From: Lineus longissimus
Taxonomy: Eukaryota > Nemertea > Pilidiophora > Heteronemertea > Lineidae
DNA length: 64,000 bases
Reading direction: 5' to 3'
Assembly: GCF_910592395.1 (NCBI RefSeq)
Contig: NC_088326.1
Coordinates: forward strand, 9,243,001 to 9,307,000
Position numbers and translations under genes: made by a program. This document shows positions 3,683-63,781 of this stretch, one piece after another (positions within the stretch are counted from its first letter, which is position 1; each line of letters begins with the position of its first letter). The notes under the pieces were generated by a model. It had not been told where the DNA came from and made no database searches. It saw only the letters and a list, made by a program, of their open reading frames with translations.

Positions 3683-4218
3683 CAAAAATATAGGTCAGTA
3701 CTATACTCAGGTCATGAGGTACAGGCCTACATGTACAGTATGAGTACACTCCAGTTTGTCATGACGATGACAGTCCAGTTCTTGGCGTACATAATTCCTC
3801 GCCATGGCCTCCAGAAGTGCATGGTGGTAACGAGCACAGGGTAGCCCGATGCAGAACACTCACCAAGTATACTAAATCACGATTCCGGTTACAATTCAAC
3901 TTTTATTTCGCACAAATTCTCTCAATCATGTCAATCACACAGCGAAAAAAAGGCGCAGTCCTTCTCTCACCTGCCGCTACCTTTCGCAAGTCCCCCACAC
4001 TTGACTTACTTAAAGGGGTAGTGGCTCGCAGCCACCACGGCACAGTGTGGTGTGGTATCAAAACATAGCTAAAACATCATCTTATATTTCTACAGGTTAT
4101 TGAACTCATATAATATCCCTGAGCCCAGGTGGTTTGGATGTAATTGTGCCTACCTTCTTCTTACTCCTCGCAGCATTTCTCATTCTCCGATGATGTGCAC
4201 TGCCACTCACTGTCACAA
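3683..4218. other. No gene seen
   Basis: Only short open frames without domain content are present. The 940-bp repeat begins at the downstream edge. Confidence 0.4.
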
Positions 4219-6350
4219 ATATCTTTTTCCATGAAGTTTTTAACATTTTTTGCCTGTCCTACATCACCAGAGTACCTTGAAGTCACGGCTGGTAGATATG
4301 AGTAATTTTTCACCGATGTTTCATCCCTTGATATTATGCCGAGTCTTCTAAGGTCACAGATATGAGTAATTTTTCACCGATGTTTCAGCCCTTGATATTA
4401 TACCTGTCACCATACTTTTGGGGGCTGCCTATTAGTTTGCTCCATACACCCCTGAAGCCCTCCCACCACCATCACCATGGACATTATATCAAGCTGTCTG
4501 ATCCTCTGAGACGGATGTCCCAAGCCTGGTCCTGAGATGCTTAAGTCTGGTCCTTAACTAAACCTAGTCAGCTATGTGTCCTTCGCCCGGGGTCCTGGGT
4601 ACCTGAGTCCTAGCATCCAGAATGCTATTACTGGCTAAGTTGATGATAGTTCATAGTGTCAGATGGATGTCCTGAAATGATACCCTTGGATGTCCTACTG
4701 TCACAAAATCAGCCCTGGATGCCCTAGCCTACTGTCAAGGACCCTGGTCTTCATTTTCCTGCTGACACAACATTATTTACCCTTGGATGTCCTGCTGACA
4801 CGACATTTACCCTCAGATGTCCGACACGACATTAACCCTTCGATGTCTGACTGCTGATGGACAGGACACCCGGACAGCTAGGACTGACTGTCACAACTAC
4901 CCTGCCCTCATGTCCTGCCCGGGTGCCCTGCAGACACGATATTTACCCTCGGATCCTACTGACACGACATTAACCCTCGGATGTCCTACTGACATGACAT
5001 TAACCCTCAGATGTCTTGTTTGACACCACTAGTACCCTGGGACAAAAGGTTGTGACTTCCGAAGGTTGTGACAAGACAATATTCATTAGCACAACCTTCC
5101 AGGATAATTGGCAAGATATTTAATTCAGGAGATGATCTGGCTAGTAATCTTGCGTGAAATATCTTTTTCCATGAAGTTTTTAACATTTTTTGCCTGTCCT
5201 ACATCACCAGAGTACCTTGAAGTCACGGCTGGTAGATATGAGTAATTTTTCACCGATGTTTCATCCCTTGATATTATGCCGAGTCTTCTGAGGTCACAGA
5301 TATGAGTAATTTTTCACCGATGTTTCAGCCCTTGATATTATACCTGTCACCATACTTTTGGGGGCTGCCTATTAGTTTGCTCCATACACCCCTGAAGCCC
5401 TCCCACCACCATCACCATGGACATTATATCAAGCTGTCTGATCCTCTGAGACGGATGTCCCAAGCCTGGTCCTGAGATGGTTAAGTCTGGTCCTTAACTA
5501 AACCTAGCCAGCTATGTGTCCTTCGCCCGGGGTCCTGGGTACCTGAGTCCTAGCATCCAGAATGCTATTACTGGCTAAGTTGATGATAGTTCATAGTGTC
5601 AGATGGATGTCCTGAAATGATACCCTTGGATGTCCTACTGTCACAACATCAGCCCTGGATGCCCTAGCCTACTGTCAAGGACCCTGGTCTTCATTTTCCT
5701 GCTGACACAACATTATTTACCCTTGGATGTCCTGCTGACACGACATTTACCCTCGGATGTCCGACACGACATTAACCCTTCGATGTCTGACTGCTGATGG
5801 ACAGGACACCCGGACAGCTAGGAATGACTGTCACAACTACCCTGCCCTCATGTCCTGCCCGGGTGCCCTGCGGACACGATATTTACCCTCGGATCCTACT
5901 GACACGACATTAACCCTCGGATGTCCTACTGACATGACATTAACCCTCAGATGTCTTGTTTGACACCACTAGTACCCTGGGACAAAAGGTTGTGACTTCC
6001 GAAGGTTGTGACAAGACAATATTCATTAGCACAACCTTCCAGGATAATTGGCAAGATATTTAATTCAGGAGATGGTCTGGCTAGTAATCTTGCGTGAAAT
6101 ATCTTTTTCCATGAAGTTTTTAACATTTTTTGCCTGTCCTACATCACCAGAGTACCTTGACGTCACGGCAGGTAGATATGAGTAATTTTTCACCGATGTT
6201 TCAGCCCTTGATATTATGCCGAGTCTTCTGAGGTCACAGATATGAGTAATTTTTCACCGATGTTTCAGCCCTTGATATTATACCTGTCACCATACGTTTG
6301 GGGGCTGCCTATTAGTTTGCTCCATACACCCCTGAAGCCCTCCCACCACC
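4219..6350 (+). repeat. 940-bp direct tandem repeat, two full copies and a third partial one (left arm)
   Basis: The segment starting AATATCTTTTTCCATGAAG at about 4219 recurs at about 5158 and 6098, so the period is close to 940 bp. The first two copies are nearly identical; the third diverges after about 250 bp. Each full copy ends with a run of short units around the phrase GGATGTCCTACTGACACGAC, itself a degenerate minisatellite of about 35-40 bp. Open frames inside it are repeat artefacts. The same unit occurs in inverted orientation at 8425-9870, so this forms the left arm of a very large inverted repeat. Confidence 0.85.
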
Positions 6351-51439: not shown

Positions 51440-53875
51440 GAGTAGAGCGGGGCAAGACGCCCCCCTTAAGGGATAAAGTCACGTAGGATGCATAGTAATA
51501 CTACCAGTAGCGAACTGCACCTCGTGATGACTGACACTTGGAAGTACCACCAATAGGTCATAATAATATTCAGCTCTCTCATTGGTTTAATGGTGCAGGG
51601 GATCTTTTATAACAAAGTTCAAAAGGGGCGTTTTACCCCATATATGGGGCAAGTTGCCCCGCTAGTTGGGGCAAGAGGCCCACTGGGGGGCGTCTTACCC
51701 CACACTGGAGGGGCGTCTTGCCCCACGGCTGGAAAAGGGTTTGTGACCGTTGACTCAATTAAGACACAACTCAATTAAGACACAACTGTTTTAAGCCCCG
51801 TCTAGACTAGCCAGGTTTCTCCAGTAATTTGCGCTTTGGTTTTTTACCTTTACCTTTTGTTTTGGCACTGTGGTGACTGTCTTTGGTTTCGACCTTTCGC
51901 TTTTTCCCTTTTCCAGCAGACAGTGTCACTCCCTTTCGTTTTCCCTTTCCTTTCTCTGCCTTCTGTTGCAACCTCTGCACAACCTCAGCCTTGTATGGAG
52001 ATGAGGTAAGGATTTCTGCCTGTTGTTTCTTTGACGGTTTTCTTTTATTCTGTTTCCTACTGGCACTGGCATGAGGTGGAGACATGGAGTTGTGAACTTC
52101 TTCTATGTTTGGAACCTGTGGTAGATCTGTTAAACCTGAAAAAATTTGATTATTACATTTGAGCATATAGGCCTGATATGAATGTAGCTAATAGTTGGGA
52201 CTAGCAAGATCCACAGTCGTATCATTGGTATAGACCTTTCCAATAAAGATGGCGGCCTACTTGTTTTCGTCTTTTGTGTGGATGGCCACTGAACAATTAA
52301 CCACATGATATCGGGATAACAGGCCACCATCTTTGTTGGGAAGGTCTAGTTCTATATACTTACTGCTGTTCGACCTATCCAGAAGGCGTATATAAACAAA
52401 TGGATGCTATACAGATCTATTAATACGAGTGCAACCATATGTTAACAAAGGGTGGGGCAAGACGCCCCCTCTCTGGGGCGAGAAGCCCCCCCCCCCGATG
52501 GGCCTCTTGCCCCGCCATGGAGGGGCGTCTTACCCCATAGGCATACGCCCAATTCTAACAGCCTCGCTTTCGTACCACGATGGCATGTGGCCTGGGAGCC
52601 CAGACAAGAACTAGAATTGTCGGTTGAGTCTGCAGGCAGACTCTGGAGTCTCCGTCAACTGTGGGGTGCTTTGTTTGTTGAGGAAGTGGAGGAGGCAGTA
52701 TGTTTTGGTTAAAAGTTTATTGGGAAAATAGATATATACATATATACATAGTTGGAGATTAAAAGTCGGGTTACTGGTTTGTAGACCTTGGTATGAGAAT
52801 TGTCTTCGCTGGCAAGGTTTGCATTGGGTTTATGTTGCTGCTGTGTTAACGCTGTGTTGGGATAGCAGCGATGGTGATTTTGTGATTCACATGTGCCTTA
52901 AACACTATTCTGCACATGCGACTTGCGCATGACCGGAACTTGATCGTCTTATCAACGCCGTCGCCTCGCTCCAAGGCCCTGCCTGTATTGACCACTATTG
53001 TTGCCGCGAAAATTTGTTTGTAGCAAGAATAACTTATAACAACAATGAATCATAAAAGATTTCAATTTATGTCCAAGCAAGTGTGTTCCTGTAATCGTTG
53101 CTCTTAAGTACGAATTGATCAACATGGAAGCTATCGAAATTGGCAGGGAATATGGTCGCATAATACGTCTCGTTTGGAGAATGTGCAATGGCGGAAATCG
53201 AAATTGGCAGGGAATATGGTGGCATAATACGTCTCGTTTGGAGATTGTGTAATGGCGGATCAAATTTTCACGGCCCATCGCCAAACGGCTGTCTCGTCCC
53301 CTAAAATATGTCGTTATTGCTCGCTAAATAATTCTGAAAATTCGCACTGCACACCTTTGATGTTTCGATAAACAACTCATTATACTATTTGATTTACTTA
53401 ATGTCCAGTTTTCCCTAAACTTCGCGAACACGAATCCACCTGGGTTCTCCAATCACTAATGATATACACAGTGCATTGCATACACCGTAGTCACATGGAA
53501 CGGGGTTATAAATTGGGGGAATTTGCCTAGCTAAACCAAGAGTCTCCTTTCAACCCTACATACGTAGGTTGACGGAGACTAATGATCTTCTTACTCATGT
53601 CCATCTTTGTCATTTATGTGATTAAATCTTACCTCGTGATTCTATGTGGTGGCTACGAAATACTCGTCTACGTAAAATCACATCAAAATGACCGAAAATC
53701 AACTTCAGGTCGTAATTTCCAGAGCGAGCTGTCTGCTTCAACCGGGATGCTGATCTGACCTTGACATCAAGTTACAGAATTTGTGGATAGACGGCAGCAC
53801 TTGTTGGGCGTTGAATATTGGAAATAGGAGGGGTGGGCGACTTGCCTCTGGGGGGCGTCTTGCCCCGCTCTACTC
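51440..53875. mobile_element. Pogo-like (TA) element with GC-rich subterminal repeats
   Basis: The 2,436-bp insertion is flanked by TA (51438-51439 and 53876-53877); copy A reads AAGAACGTATCCCTTG uninterrupted. The inverted ends start GAGTAGAGCGGGGCAAGACG. The interior has several further GGGGCAAGACGCCCC-like palindromic blocks near 51640-51725 and 52450-52535. Only a fragment of a protein is left (51807-52166), so it is a deletion derivative. Confidence 0.85.
51807..52166 (-). pseudogene. Lys-rich C-terminal fragment, probably of a pogo-type transposase
   Basis: The 119-codon reading has SKKQQAEILTSSPYK then long Lys/Gly-rich segments (KGKGKRKGVTLSAGKGKKRK). From family knowledge, an ILTSSPYK-type motif with a basic tail follows the DDE domain in pogo/Tigger transposases. 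No catalytic part is left in the element. An acceptor-like TTTTTTCAG precedes GLTDLPQVPN, so this could be the last exon. Confidence 0.45.
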
Positions 53876-55241
53876 TATCCCTTGCATGGACGTAACTTTG
53901 AGGGTACTTATATACTGATGACTGTTTGATAGCATTTTCTAATAGATCCTCTGCTTTCTTGCTTGTGATGACACGGCGCGATGGTTCGTAGTTCGCATCC
54001 GTGCGACAACGTGAGGTTGGTGGACAATTGCCATGATTATTCTTATAATGTTCGGTGATATTTTCCGTCATAGCTTTCAATTTGTCTTTGTCATGATCAC
54101 AATTTCTGATTGCCCAGTTTATGTGCGTTGCAATACCCATTGGCTTGTCCTGCAGTTCTTCATGCCAGGTTTTGTTGTGCCTTTTCTTCGCTCCTTCTGC
54201 CACTTTCTTTACTGATTTGGTAATGTTTTTTACCGCATGCCAGGTATCGTTTTGATTAATTGTTGAGTTTTTATCCCTTACCAGTTTGTTTACTGCCCCA
54301 TTGAAGTCATGGCAATGAATATTGATCCCAATTCCCCCATCCTCTGTATTTTCCAAGTAATCGTATATCCTCTTTGTTCCCAGTGTCTCATGTCTTCGCG
54401 TAACAGGATCGTCTCTCTTTGTCACATGCTCACATCGGAGCACTTTTTGGGTTTTCTCACCCATCCCAACCACACTCGTATCCTTGGCATTTTTTCGCCA
54501 TCCATGGCGAGCATCAGTTGCAATGTTTATGCCTGGATGATACTCCTCCTCCTCACCATCGTCATTCGGAACAGTTACGTAGTCGTAGCTCCCGATCTCC
54601 TCCAAAAGTGCCTGGTGGGTACTTTTCTTCTCCTCTTCCTCTGAACTAGGGAAGAAGTACAATCTTTGGTTGTCTGTCAGAAGGAAAACGCGAGACTTAT
54701 CAATGCTGCAAGTATCCACAAAACGTCTGTACATAACTGGTAGAAGACCACTCGAAAAGAACCCATGTGCCATTCTTGTATTCACCAAAAGTCTATTGTC
54801 AGGAAGGCACGACGAGGATATCCACTCATATTTGTGATGACCGTGCCGTCTTCCACATCGAACTTTAGTTTTGACTGCATGCCCAAGATAATGTGTCTCG
54901 ATTATAGAAAGTCCTGCGTTGCATAACCGTCCATGGCGTTCCGACATTTCAATGACTTTTTGAAGCGCATCCTTGCTACACACAAACAGTTCTTGCTTCA
55001 AATCGTTCCTTTCGACAGGCTGGTAAGTAGGAGTTGCTGTTGTTCTGTCCTCTTCCAAATGATGATTTAGCCAAAAGTCCAAGGCATTTTCAATGATCAT
55101 CGCATTGTTCACTGGGCGTTCAGTCTCCGTCACCAAAAAATCACGTACTAGCTGCATCTTCTTTCGAATGGACTCTTTTATATTATTATTCCCTGGGATT
55201 TCAATTTTGAAACTTTTTGGACGCACACTTTTTTCAGCCAT

Positions 55242-55509: not shown

Positions 55510-56397
55510 ATGGATAGCAGCTTTGATGAAAGAGAAAATGAAATCATGGACTCGTCAATGGAACAAGCGTCCCGTGCTTCTTCAGAAAATAGAGACACTG
55601 ATACAGAGGATACAGATAATACAGAAAATCGTCATGTATTTGCAATTATAGTCACTGCTGAGGAGGAAGAAATGATCAGAGGATTCATGCAATTCAGTGA
55701 TATCAACGTTGAGATTTCCCCAGCCCATGCATCTTTAGAAAATATAGACACAGATAATACAGAAAATCGGCATGTATTTGCAATTATAGTCACTGCTGAG
55801 GAGGAAAAAATGATCAGAGGATTCATGCAATTCTTTGATATCAACGTTGAGATTGCCCCAGCCCATGCTTCTTCAAAAGATCGTCATGTATTTGCGATTC
55901 TCGTCACTACTGAGGAAGAAGAAAAAATAAGAGGATATATGCAATTCAGTGATATCAACGTTGAGATTGCCCCAGCAGCAAATGTGGATGCCAATGATGC
56001 CACTGATGATGCTCCGGAAAATCCTGGTTTCCGAATAAACCAGGACTACAATCAGACTGAATGTCCCCAGTGTTTTTGCAGTCCATGCATCACTGATGAA
56101 ACCAACAAACAATTGTGGTGGGAAACCATTAATGCAGAACCGGATTATCTCCATTCTAGTTCCAGAAAATCGACCTACCGAAAATTCTGGACAATGATGT
56201 TGCATCGAGATGTGTGGAATGATCCAAGGTACCAAGAGAAAAAAACATTGGCACTGCAACAAAGACGTGCCAGGGGAAAGACATTTGTAACCCATCGGCG
56301 GGACATCATGCCAAATTCTGCATTGAACTTGTACGAAAGTGGTATCCCAACCCAGAAAAAGTCCCCTACATGGGACACAAGTGGGAATAGAGCTTGA
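55510..56397 (+). pseudogene. P2X7-tail-like Cys-rich protein, copy B (C-terminal frameshift)
   Basis: It starts MDSSFDERENEIMDSS. Residues about 40-150 consist of three tandem modules based on RHVFAIIVTAEEEEMIRGFM, each followed by QFSDINVEI-type sequence. Then come CPQCFCSPCITDE, WW and YRKFWTMMLHRDVWND. Near 56317 one base is missing relative to copy A, so the conserved IMPNCVIELLRKWYPN ending is lost and a foreign tail follows. The module count (three) differs from one in element C. Confidence 0.65.
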
Positions 56398-60874: not shown

Positions 60875-62479
60875 TTAGACTTGTGAGTTGTCAGACTCAG
60901 GGTTGCTGGGTGGTTCAGGGTCTTGTTGGATGCAGGAACGTTTATTATGCCCGGCCTTCCCACAAGATCCACACGCTTGGAATTTCAGTTCCCGTTTACA
61001 TGTCTGTGACAACTTCTCAAGTCTATTTTGTTTGCTCATAACTTGTTTTAGGGCCATGTCTCCATGATTCGAACCACGAAAATACCAAACTGTTACCCTG
61101 TCGTTGAGTTTTTCTAAGCCCTGTTGATTAAAGTGATGGATATTACCATGGAGTTCAAAGGCTTCACTGACATGAAATGCCAAAACATGCATGTAAGGTG
61201 TGACATTTTTTGTTTGGTAAGCATCAGCAAACTTTGTGACCCATGCCTTGCATTTCACATCAAAAGCCTTGAAATCAGATACACCTGAGGAAATTTCCAT
61301 CATTAAGTCTTTAAAGCTTGCCCACAACCATTTGATATCATTTAGCTGTGGATGGTCAGGGATAAAATTATCTAAATTGATGTTGTGGAAGATTTTCCAG
61401 TGATCTGGCCCAGTGATGGTTCCATGTTCAAGTAGACCTCCTCTAGAAATGTAGAAGCTGAAGTCGGGGATTTTCAGTTCGTTTTTCAGAAACTTTTCCA
61501 ATTTCAAAATATTATGGCATTTGTCCTTCTGAAATTTCGAAGGGACAATTTTTTCTATGTTGTCTAATCTCCGTAATTCAAATAACAAGTGGTTGAATAG
61601 CTGATCAGCAATTCTAATGAACAGGTGTAATGTGTCTGGAACAATATTTTGGATTGGTATGAAATCAAAAATTGGTTCATGGGAGCAATTGAACCGATTG
61701 CCAGTTTTCTTGGATGCCATGAGTGATATTTCCTCAACACTTCTTGCCCCGTTCCCACCGACCATCATTGACCAGTCTTTCTCCATGTCATATCGTAAGT
61801 CACTGGGGCATTTGCACCACAAACAACAGTGCTTTGAGTTGCATGCATCTATGCCAGTAACGCAGTTCAAAAATTTCATATCGCCCCCTACATAAAAATC
61901 AATGTCATAGGTCACACCATCAACTTCAATAGAATGCAGATTCTTACTTTCTTCATATATGTCCTGGAGAGCAACTTTCAGTTCTTTGTATGTTTCATGG
62001 CATTTGAAAATGGCCAAAATATGATGTCCACTGTAGCTCATGCAAGAGTCTTCTTCCAGAAGGCTGAACGAGAAGGTAACCAAGTGCAAGCGTTTACCAA
62101 CGTTGGTACCATCACCTGACAATTTGACTCGCAGTTTTTGGGGAAGAGACTTTGTCTCTTTCACCTGCGTTACCACCTCCTTCAGTCGTTCTGTGATAGA
62201 CTGTTGCACCCCAACAATGGGCTCTGGAGCAGGTTTTATGTCAAAGCTATTGTTCAGTTCTTTGATTCTTTTAAACACCTTATGAGCTCTAATCGGAGAC
62301 TTAGATGCACCAATTATTTCTTGGAGAGCACGGTTGGAGACATTAAACGAATCCTTGACATATAAAATCATGTTAATATCATCAATATCCCTATCAGTCA
62401 TTTCTACTTGGTCGTTGGCTGTCATTGCTTCTGCATCTAAAATTATTTCTTCAATACCCTTGGACGTTTTGACCTTCAC
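60875..62479 (-). CDS. RAG1/Transib-like DDE transposase core with C-terminal zinc knuckle
   Basis: The open frame has about 534 codons and its true start lies upstream. Candidate catalytic residues are Asp123 (KLSGDGTNV), Asp200 (YVGGDMKFL) and Glu456 (QQGLEKLND). A zinc-binding insertion is formed by Cys219-x2-Cys222 (CLWC) and His431-x4-His436 (YMHVLAFHV). In mouse RAG1 the residues are D600, D708, C727, C730, H937, H942 and E962: the D-to-Cys distance (19), C-x2-C, H-x4-H and His-to-Glu distance (20) are all the same here. The C terminus carries CGSCGKAGHNKRSC, a C-x2-C-x3-G-H-x4-C knuckle like that described in the tail of RAG1-like transposases. No RAG2-like gene is seen. The frame is open, but the N-terminal part lies in another frame (62480-62868). 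Confidence 0.65.
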   Translation of the reverse strand: MKVKTSKGIEEIILDAEAMTANDQVEMTDRDIDDINMILYVKDSFNVSNRALQEIIGASKSPIRAHKVFKRIKELNNSFDIKPAPEPIVGVQQSITERLKEVVTQVKETKSLPQKLRVKLSGDGTNVGKRLHLVTFSFSLLEEDSCMSYSGHHILAIFKCHETYKELKVALQDIYEESKNLHSIEVDGVTYDIDFYVGGDMKFLNCVTGIDACNSKHCCLWCKCPSDLRYDMEKDWSMMVGGNGARSVEEISLMASKKTGNRFNCSHEPIFDFIPIQNIVPDTLHLFIRIADQLFNHLLFELRRLDNIEKIVPSKFQKDKCHNILKLEKFLKNELKIPDFSFYISRGGLLEHGTITGPDHWKIFHNINLDNFIPDHPQLNDIKWLWASFKDLMMEISSGVSDFKAFDVKCKAWVTKFADAYQTKNVTPYMHVLAFHVSEAFELHGNIHHFNQQGLEKLNDRVTVWYFRGSNHGDMALKQVMSKQNRLEKLSQTCKRELKFQACGSCGKAGHNKRSCIQQDPEPPSNPESDNSQV

Positions 62480-62868
62480 ACTGAAAGGTTGAAAATTTTT
62501 GCTCTTTTCTTCATCATTTGGCTCTCTTTTTCTCTTTTCATTGCTCGTGCATGCAGTTCCTCAACACGTTGACGTTTGACCATTTCCCTATCAATGTCTG
62601 CCTGTAATTTGCGTTTTACTGGTGTGCCCCTCTTAAATTTCAACACAAACTTGTATTCTTTCTCTTTCCAACCACCTATCAGTTTTCTAAATTGCAAGCC
62701 ACCAGCCCTTTTCACCCTTTTATACGTTGAATGCATTTTTTTCAAATAGCTCACTGATATTTTTTCTGTTGCTGGCAAGTCTAGGTGAGCGAAATCAAGT
62801 CGATGTTTTCTGCACAGATTCTCAGAAACTTTGCTTGCCACTGATTCATTCGCTTGCCCATCAGACAT
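62480..62868 (-). CDS. Basic N-terminal segment of the RAG1-like protein, in another frame
   Basis: The reading from a possible start MSDGQANESVAS (62868), just after a TTTTGTCAG acceptor, is rich in Lys and Arg: KKMHSTYKRVKRAGG, WKEKEYKFVLKF and EMVKRQRVEELHARAMKRE. It ends FNLSV at 62476, overlapping the start of the 534-codon frame at a GTGTG; losing one TG would fuse the two. It may therefore be one gene with a 2-bp shift (mutation or assembly error), or two exons using the CTTTCAG acceptor. The longer open frame upstream to 63045 looks non-coding in its hydrophobic part. Confidence 0.45.
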
Positions 62869-63064
62869 TTCATACTGACAAAACATATTCACAGGGATAT
62901 CAAATGCGCAGATATCAATAAACCGGCCTTCATTAGCTGATCCATAGTAATTGTCATTTGTTGGAAATGCAAATACTGTTGTGAATGTCAAGTTCAAGAT
63001 AGCCCGGAGGAACAACATCCCTGAGAGAGATCCCATCATGTTCATGATTTAGACCTATTTTTTG

Positions 63065-63736
63065 TCAGTAGTTGAGTCCCTCCTTGAAAGCCGGAAGAGT
63101 GGCCCGTGTTCCTGATGCCCAGACAAATTTTATCACTAGGCAAAATCCTCTGTGAAGTGAATGTTCCCTACAGTCAAGATCGAAATATTTCAGTTGTTTC
63201 CTCTCATGAAGGCAGAAGCGAAGGGTATTTGGAACTATGTAGTTAAAGTCCCCAGCTGGATTTGTCACACAGTAGTGCCAATCAGAACCAAGGAGGGTGT
63301 CGAAGTCATGCGCATTGTTCAAATTTAGCTCATTTCTGACACCAGAGTCAATTCCAACTTGGAGAAACGGTAGTGCCGTTTCTTCTTGACACCCAATACG
63401 AATTTCCACCGCCGAGTCCTTCTTTCTTTGCCCCTGCAAGTGCTCTTTTATTTGAGCAGTCACCTGCGATTTTAGAAGTTCAAATGCATCTGCCTTGGTA
63501 ACGGATTGTGGCCTTATAACTATGTCGGACTCCTTTTTCCACTCGTTGAAACTGTTGTCCCAACCAACGTAATGGACTAAAACCTCCTTCCCAGCATCAC
63601 TATCCCTTTCTTGGATTATGCGTATATCCCAAAGCTTGGAGATCGGCCATTTGGGTGTGGTCACTCTAAGATGCCTCAAGGATACAGATTCTTCACTGTA
63701 ATTGACCCTAGCCCTTGGTCGTAGAACGATGGGCAT
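63065..63736 (-). CDS. Chromo/tudor-knot-like protein
   Basis: The start MPIVLRPRARVNYSEES at 63736 follows a CTTTTATAG acceptor-like site. Residues about 30-75 read WDIRIIQERD, VLVHYVGWDNSFNEWKKESD, a small beta-barrel of the chromo/tudor-knot type (Tyr-Val-Gly-Trp-Asp, then Asn-Glu-Trp), which normally binds methylated histone tails or RNA. The rest, about 150 residues to a stop at 63065, is not recognised. It lies on the same strand just upstream of the RAG1-like gene and may be its accessory protein or first exon. Targeting to chromatin is inferred only from the domain. Confidence 0.5.
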   Translation of the reverse strand: MPIVLRPRARVNYSEESVSLRHLRVTTPKWPISKLWDIRIIQERDSDAGKEVLVHYVGWDNSFNEWKKESDIVIRPQSVTKADAFELLKSQVTAQIKEHLQGQRKKDSAVEIRIGCQEETALPFLQVGIDSGVRNELNLNNAHDFDTLLGSDWHYCVTNPAGDFNYIVPNTLRFCLHERKQLKYFDLDCREHSLHRGFCLVIKFVWASGTRATLPAFKEGLNY

Positions 63737-63781
63737 CCCTATAAAAGAAACAATACCCACACTAAGTGCACTAAAAAACAT

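Follow-up and report, generated by a model that had tools for sequence, protein, structure and literature searches.

A probable decayed cut-and-paste transposon with a RAG1/Transib-type transposase core and a linked chromo-like gene in the nemertean Lineus longissimus

What kind of element is represented by an open reading frame of 534 codons that resembles the recombinase RAG1 and lies in the genome of the nemertean Lineus longissimus? The stretch analysed here (64,000 nucleotides, positions 9,243,001 to 9,307,000 of contig NC_088326.1, assembly GCF_910592395.1) is called the window, and the frame lies near its end. The locus is very probably a decayed DNA transposon of the cut-and-paste type, a member of the CMCT clade (EnSpm-Mirage-Chapaev-Transib, including RAG1, as defined in the available part of PMC12730594), whose transposase has a RAG1/Transib-type core. 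Such a core had been proposed from motifs by a first-pass annotation of the sequence; predicted fold and sequence profiles now support it more strongly than the motifs alone.

Homologues of the window protein number 295 at E≤0.001 in a large protein collection, the search covering proteins up to 1.75 times the query length. The 120 that were listed, together with the window protein, form the alignment used throughout (A1, n=121). Among the matches listed, lengths range from 418 to 844 amino acids (aa), with many around 740 aa; nearly all are nameless, and of the two with a species label one is from the sea urchin Lytechinus pictus, the other from the sea cucumber Holothuria leucospilota. The residues named in the first-pass annotation are where it placed them, and are invariant or nearly so. 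D123, D200, C219, C222, H431, H436, and E456 are identical in 121/121 sequences, while in the C-terminal tail C503, C506, and H511 are kept in 120, C516 in 118, and G510 in 102. The spacings are equally stable, with 19 residues from D200 to C219 and 5 from H431 to H436 in every sequence, and 20 from H436 to E456 in 117. Three further conserved positions, absent from that annotation, are E162 (119/121), H285 (120/121), and N459 (121/121). The catalytic and core zinc residues are not chance occurrences.

In structural comparison of the predicted core, RAG1 ranks first. The predicted fold matches RAG1 and RAG1-like proteins (RAG1L, including TransibSU and ProtoRAG) over about 440 residues, with 13-17% identity in the structural alignments, and the model gathers a RAG1-type core within one chain. 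Along the frame follow the predicted counterparts of the RAG1 dimerisation and DNA-binding part, the RNase H domain, the split zinc site, the C-terminal domain, and the zinc-knuckle tail. D123, which we take to be the counterpart of RAG1 D600, sits on a predicted strand, and E456 on a predicted helix. The transposase families among the 50 structural matches listed were RAG1, RAG1L, Transib, P, IS256-type (ISCth4), hAT (Hermes), and integrases; the P element transposase superposes poorly (root-mean-square deviation 9.9 over 359 residues, 9% identity). To our knowledge, neither EnSpm nor Chapaev has a solved structure, and the fold ranking is thus unable to weigh these two.

Sequence profiles point the same way. 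Searched against PDB sequences, the family profile places zebrafish RAG1 on top (E 3.1e-5, over two weak stretches), with BbRAG1L at 2.9e-4, and the full A1 profile scores PDB RAG1 chains at up to 25.8 bits. The Pfam RAG1 model matches 8 of 62 family members at E≤0.1 (best 1.5e-5) and, among the 25 of 66 families listed, ties with a zinc-knuckle model as the commonest match. In profile-profile comparison (hhalign), a check of the kind suggested by the first-pass annotation, a four-sequence RAG1 profile scores 83.0 (E 5.5e-10, 332 columns), a four-sequence EnSpm profile 49.7 (E 1.8e-5, only 77 columns), and a Mutator-like frame of the window 13.0; reversed profiles give 20.5 and 18.7, and 15 column shuffles of each never exceed 23.1 and 24.7. 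With different settings, a previous run had scored RAG1 at 67.6 and EnSpm at 43.3. Against single sequences, the scores are 69.9 for mouse RAG1, 64.7 for zebrafish RAG1, 60.6 for BbRAG1L, and 28.4 for the RAG1L of the host itself, a degenerate copy with three stops.

The profile alignments pair D200, C219, C222, H431, and H436 with RAG1 D708, C727, C730, H937, and H942, and the family Glu 20 residues past the second His with E962. E162 aligns with the DES-motif Glu, and H285 with the His of the amphioxus IDATH motif. D123, E162, D200, H285, and E456 are the equivalents of D701, E764, D811, H894, and E1063, which the part of PMC7204232 consulted gives as the BbeRAG1L active site; the pairing comes from the profile alignments, and for D123 from strand position only. 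The likeness to RAG1 and RAG1L thus covers the Asp-Asp-Glu (DDE) triad, its two helper residues, and a split C2/H2 zinc site with equal spacings.

The tail is a different matter. The CCGHC pattern noted in the first-pass annotation does equal the Cx2Cx3GHx4C tail given for RAG1L in the available part of PMC7204232, but the same spacing is that of ordinary CCHC knuckles, so it is weak evidence for membership among the RAG-like (RAGL) transposases. The best PDB matches of the family C-terminal profile are retroviral nucleocapsid knuckles, RAG1 reaching only E 0.09. The tail is present in the window copy and in its intact relative L016, and absent in all three second-lineage frames examined (L009, L011, L013; the lineages are described below). 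The zinc spacing is likewise weaker evidence than it seems at first sight, and the argument from motifs is in part generic.

The window copy itself is dead, being broken relative to intact relatives. Its N-terminal part sits in a separate 189-aa frame, which matches the homologue P0011 (E 3.8e-12, BLAST against the 120 homologues), and the segment between this frame and the core is, by eye, shorter than in L016. The GTG 'start' at 62479 is merely the beginning of a mechanical open reading frame entry. Of the span first assigned to the transposase core, 60875 to 62868, the part up to 62479 is the 534-aa frame, whereas 62480-62868 falls outside it because the N-terminal part is the separate frame. 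The apparent compactness of the protein, which that annotation had taken as a trait, is an artefact of the same break. L016, about 45% identical to the window transposase, has an intact 742-aa frame running uninterrupted from the N-terminal part to the tail (mechanical start GTG), and the model of one full-length relative shows an N-terminal domain and a long helix ahead of the core. This N-terminal region is unlike that of RAG1 and RAG1L, and the many relatives of about 740 aa differ in length from the 480-residue HzTransib chain in the PDB.

Table 1. Positions of the features discussed (window coordinates unless a locus or contig is named)
Feature	Position	Strand	Evidence
RAG1-type transposase core frame, 534 aa	60875..62479	-	open reading frame, homologue alignment, predicted fold, profiles
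N-terminal part of same transposase, 189 aa, other reading frame	62476..63045	-	BLAST to homologues
D123 codon, first catalytic Asp	62111..62113	-	121/121; strand 115-127 of predicted model
E162 codon, BbeRAG1L E764 counterpart	61994..61996	-	119/121
D200 codon, second catalytic Asp, RAG1 D708 counterpart	61880..61882	-	121/121
C219-x2-C222, first half of putative split zinc site (RAG1 C727/C730)	61814..61825	-	121/121
D282-x2-H285 motif, H285 = BbeRAG1L H894 counterpart	61625..61636	-	D 121/121, H 120/121
H431-x4-H436, second half of putative split zinc site (RAG1 H937/H942)	61172..61189	-	121/121
E456 codon, catalytic Glu, RAG1 E962 counterpart	61112..61114	-	121/121; helix 453-468 of predicted model
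C503-x2-C506-x3-G510-H511-x4-C516 zinc-knuckle tail	60932..60973	-	alignment, C-terminal profile search
Chromo-like protein gene, 238 aa, upstream of transposase	63065..63781	-	Pfam Chromo E 0.0022, 18.3 bits
Second-lineage elements, about 5.5 kb	L009 1678-7158; L013 1191-6723		23-nt, 91% inverted ends with CATTACCA
Host RAG1-like loci	C7:11998413-12000092 (L034); C16:11365392-11368190		Pfam RAG1

Evidence of recent copying comes from relatives in the same genome. A protein search of the assembly (391 Mb, 30 contigs) gave 39 match rows, 38 of which are covered by 25 loci (L009-L033). Sorted by their better tblastn match to the L016 or the L009 transposase, these form a first, window-like lineage of 10 (L015, which is the window locus, L016-L023, and L032) and a second, L009-like lineage of 15 (L009-L014, L024-L031, and L033). 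Near-identical pairs lie on different contigs: L009/L010 (99.96% over 5,487 bp), L016/L017 (98.2% over 4,528 bp), and L013/L025 (97.3% over 4,912 bp). They are recent copies. Compared as profiles, the second lineage scores 48.3 to RAG1 and 31.3 to EnSpm.

The ends of these copies, whose boundaries come from two-copy comparison only and from few copies, are not those for which the first-pass annotation had suggested a search, CACAGTG-like termini with 5-bp target duplications. CATTACCA begins both ends in 4/4 second-lineage copies with both ends known, and these also show the 5'-CA..TG-3' termini of the CMCT clade. At L016/L017, the boundaries read TGTACATA/CATATC; CATATC starts one end, the other end is ambiguous, and neither boundary starts with CAC. 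No terminal inverted repeat starting with CAC was found in the relatives tested. A 5-bp target-site duplication was seen in 0/4 second-lineage insertions and, by eye, in 0/2 first-lineage ones (L016/L017). L009 and L010 have no flanking repeat of at least 3 bp within five bases of the ends, while the flanking repeats at L013 (4 bp) and L025 (3 bp) both lie off the ends and are mutually inconsistent. Near the window copy, which is decayed, no CACWRTG pair with a 5-bp repeat was found.

The lineage of the window copy is also linked to a second gene. The chromo-like neighbour reported in the first-pass annotation is present upstream of the transposase, and its counterpart at L016, an intact 220-aa frame directly upstream of the 742-aa frame (mechanical start GTG), matches an MSL3_chromo-like model (E 0.00039, also under the Pfam cut-off). 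Chromo-like sequence lies upstream and on the same strand as the transposase in 8/10 first-lineage loci (the window, L016, L017, L018, L019, L021, L022, and L032), and was detected neither in L020 and L023 nor in any of the 15 second-lineage loci (tblastn E≤1e-4 throughout). DNA similarity sorts the eight into four element groups, so that they amount to about four independent observations. In some loci, the chromo-like frames are broken or incomplete. At about 1628-1700 of L021, a pyrimidine tract and CAG can be seen by eye just ahead of the conserved chromo-like block, which suggests an intron within the gene in some copies. The product may read chromatin as a partner of the transposase, or it may be joined to the transposase by splicing and form its N-terminal part. 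Chromo domains usually read methylated histones, as RAG2 does by its PHD finger, and the chromo-like protein could, by analogy, parallel that finger.

No RAG2 gene was found with the family, in agreement with the first-pass annotation: in the window and a further 3.9 kb, the best match of two host RAG2L frames has E 4.8, and neither frame matches any of the 25 loci at E≤1e-3. These frames come from what is apparently a RAG1L-RAG2L locus carried by the host as well. The Pfam RAG1 model run over the genome gave six match rows in two places above the Pfam cut-off. At the place on C7 (L034), the RAG1L match contains three stops and is followed downstream by convergent kelch-like frames (3693-4217 and 4227-4595, minus strand), hence the assignment; a PHD-like cysteine pattern is visible, by eye only, at the end of one of them. 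The host RAG1L matches none of the 25 loci (tblastn E≤1e-3).

Several observations weigh against a RAG1-type cut-and-paste element. The window protein alone finds no Pfam family at E≤1 and no RAG1 among PDB sequences at E≤10, and Pfam RAG1 is likewise missing at E≤0.5 from single scans of L016, L009, P0001, P0005, P0006, and P0089; the link to RAG1 is, thus, visible in sequence only with profiles or in some members. In a plain hidden Markov model (HMM) search, EnSpm sequences of the same genome scored higher (L041 33.3 and L040 18.6 bits) than the degenerate host RAG1L (8.2), with EnSpm L042 at 2.5 and the best of 1,200 shuffled decoys at 5.2; this search and that of the PDB ran differently trimmed profiles. 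The Chromo match, at 18.3 bits, is under the curated Pfam cut-off of 25.1. With a broken frame and no recognisable transposon ends around the window copy, recent copying is seen only in its relatives, and the lack of a consistent target-site duplication is unexpected for DDE cut-and-paste transposition. Finally, the hairpin step described below is proposed by analogy with RAG1 and Transib.

Where within the CMCT clade, then, does the family belong? It is quite conceivable, at somewhat under an even chance, that the lineage is new to Pfam only and already has a name, be it EnSpm, Chapaev, or another Repbase family. The two EnSpm sequences prominent in the plain HMM search also score 46.4 (L041) and 43.6 (L040) by hhalign, above the host RAG1L, though below the PDB RAG1 and RAG1L chains, and two others (L042 22.5, L043 17.2) are at background level. 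The family shares with EnSpm/CACTA and other CMC transposons the C(2)C and H(3-4)H motifs, DxxH, the TP-x-M-H block, and the CA..TG termini, but its ends are not CACTA, and the EnSpm profile match is the weaker and confined to its 77 columns. As the EnSpm profile is shallow and built from partial and joined frames, this contest is no fair final test; nevertheless, the profile-profile results carry more weight than the plain HMM search. The family is related to both RAG1 and EnSpm, with RAG1 the nearer by profile. As for Chapaev, its Chapa and RING zinc fingers (PMC4411706, from the part available) are not among the Pfam rows shown for the relatives, although Pfam may lack a Chapa model.

It is unlikely that the family falls within the Transib/RAGL superfamily proper and is a sister of RAG1L that lacks RAG2. 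The sister group envisaged by the first-pass annotation is not established. RAG1 does rank first by fold and profile, the tail has the RAG1L pattern, and the CATTACCA ends are similar to the consensus of protostome RAGL ends, CACTWMCAAACKTYKBB, except that the third base is T. In that consensus, however, CAC is perfectly conserved, according to the part of PMC7204232 at hand, and the ends of the relatives, as well as the missing 5-bp duplications, set the family apart from RAG1L and Transib alike, as does its linked chromo-like gene from Transib. The EnSpm matches, the lack of a RAG2L, and the failure of the apparent host RAG1L-RAG2L locus to match any of the 25 loci also speak against this placement. 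Although the 534-codon frame is still open with every catalytic residue, domestication of the window locus as a host gene is highly improbable, since its N-terminal part is out of frame and, by eye, shortened compared with L016, and the same genome has this intact first-lineage copy and recently copied relatives.

For the preferred reading, a CMCT transposon with a RAG1/Transib-type core, a mechanism can be proposed. D123, D200, and E456 would form the active site of the RNase H domain, assisted by E162 and H285, and an insertion would be pinned to this domain by zinc held between C219, C222, H431, and H436. By analogy with RAG1L, the zinc-knuckle tail may touch the element ends; in the full-length form, the N-terminal domain and long helix would precede the core, as in the one relative modelled. 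As RAG1 and Transib do, the enzyme would first nick the flanking DNA and next close it into hairpins, freeing the element for joining to a target.

No such family is described in the titles and abstract openings listed by searches of open-access literature on Transib/RAG1-like transposases, chromodomains, and CACTA, and it may already be named in Repbase or Dfam. What is new is that a chromo-like gene is linked to the transposase, that the ends in the relatives read CAT, and that 5-bp duplications are missing there. RAG1 probably descends from a CMCT transposase, and a large, RAG2-less, RAG1-type animal family with recent copies in this genome offers natural comparisons for the ancestral parts of V(D)J chemistry. 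Its chromatin-domain neighbour offers another, on whether RAG1-type enzymes tend to recruit chromatin readers. The family may also help to root the clade, because its profile matches RAG1 and EnSpm, between whose own profiles the same run found no match. A bolder idea, attractive but rather doubtful, is that of a second, independent RAG1-RAG2-type solution. Here a RAG1-fold transposase would travel with a chromo-like, chromatin-reading partner of its own instead of the kelch-PHD protein RAG2; its lineage would connect RAG1/Transib with EnSpm in profile space, and its insertion would leave no target-site duplication.

Other frames lie nearby. The Mutator-like transposase frame of the window (53772-55241, minus strand, 489 aa) matches Pfam Mutator at E 1.6e-6, and a 295-aa frame at 55510-56397 (plus strand) contains three HVFAI-type block repeats, with a Pfam DUF3303 match barely over the cut-off. 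Near the intact chromo-carrying copy, at 92-928 of L016 (plus strand), there is a Tc1/mariner-type transposase frame.
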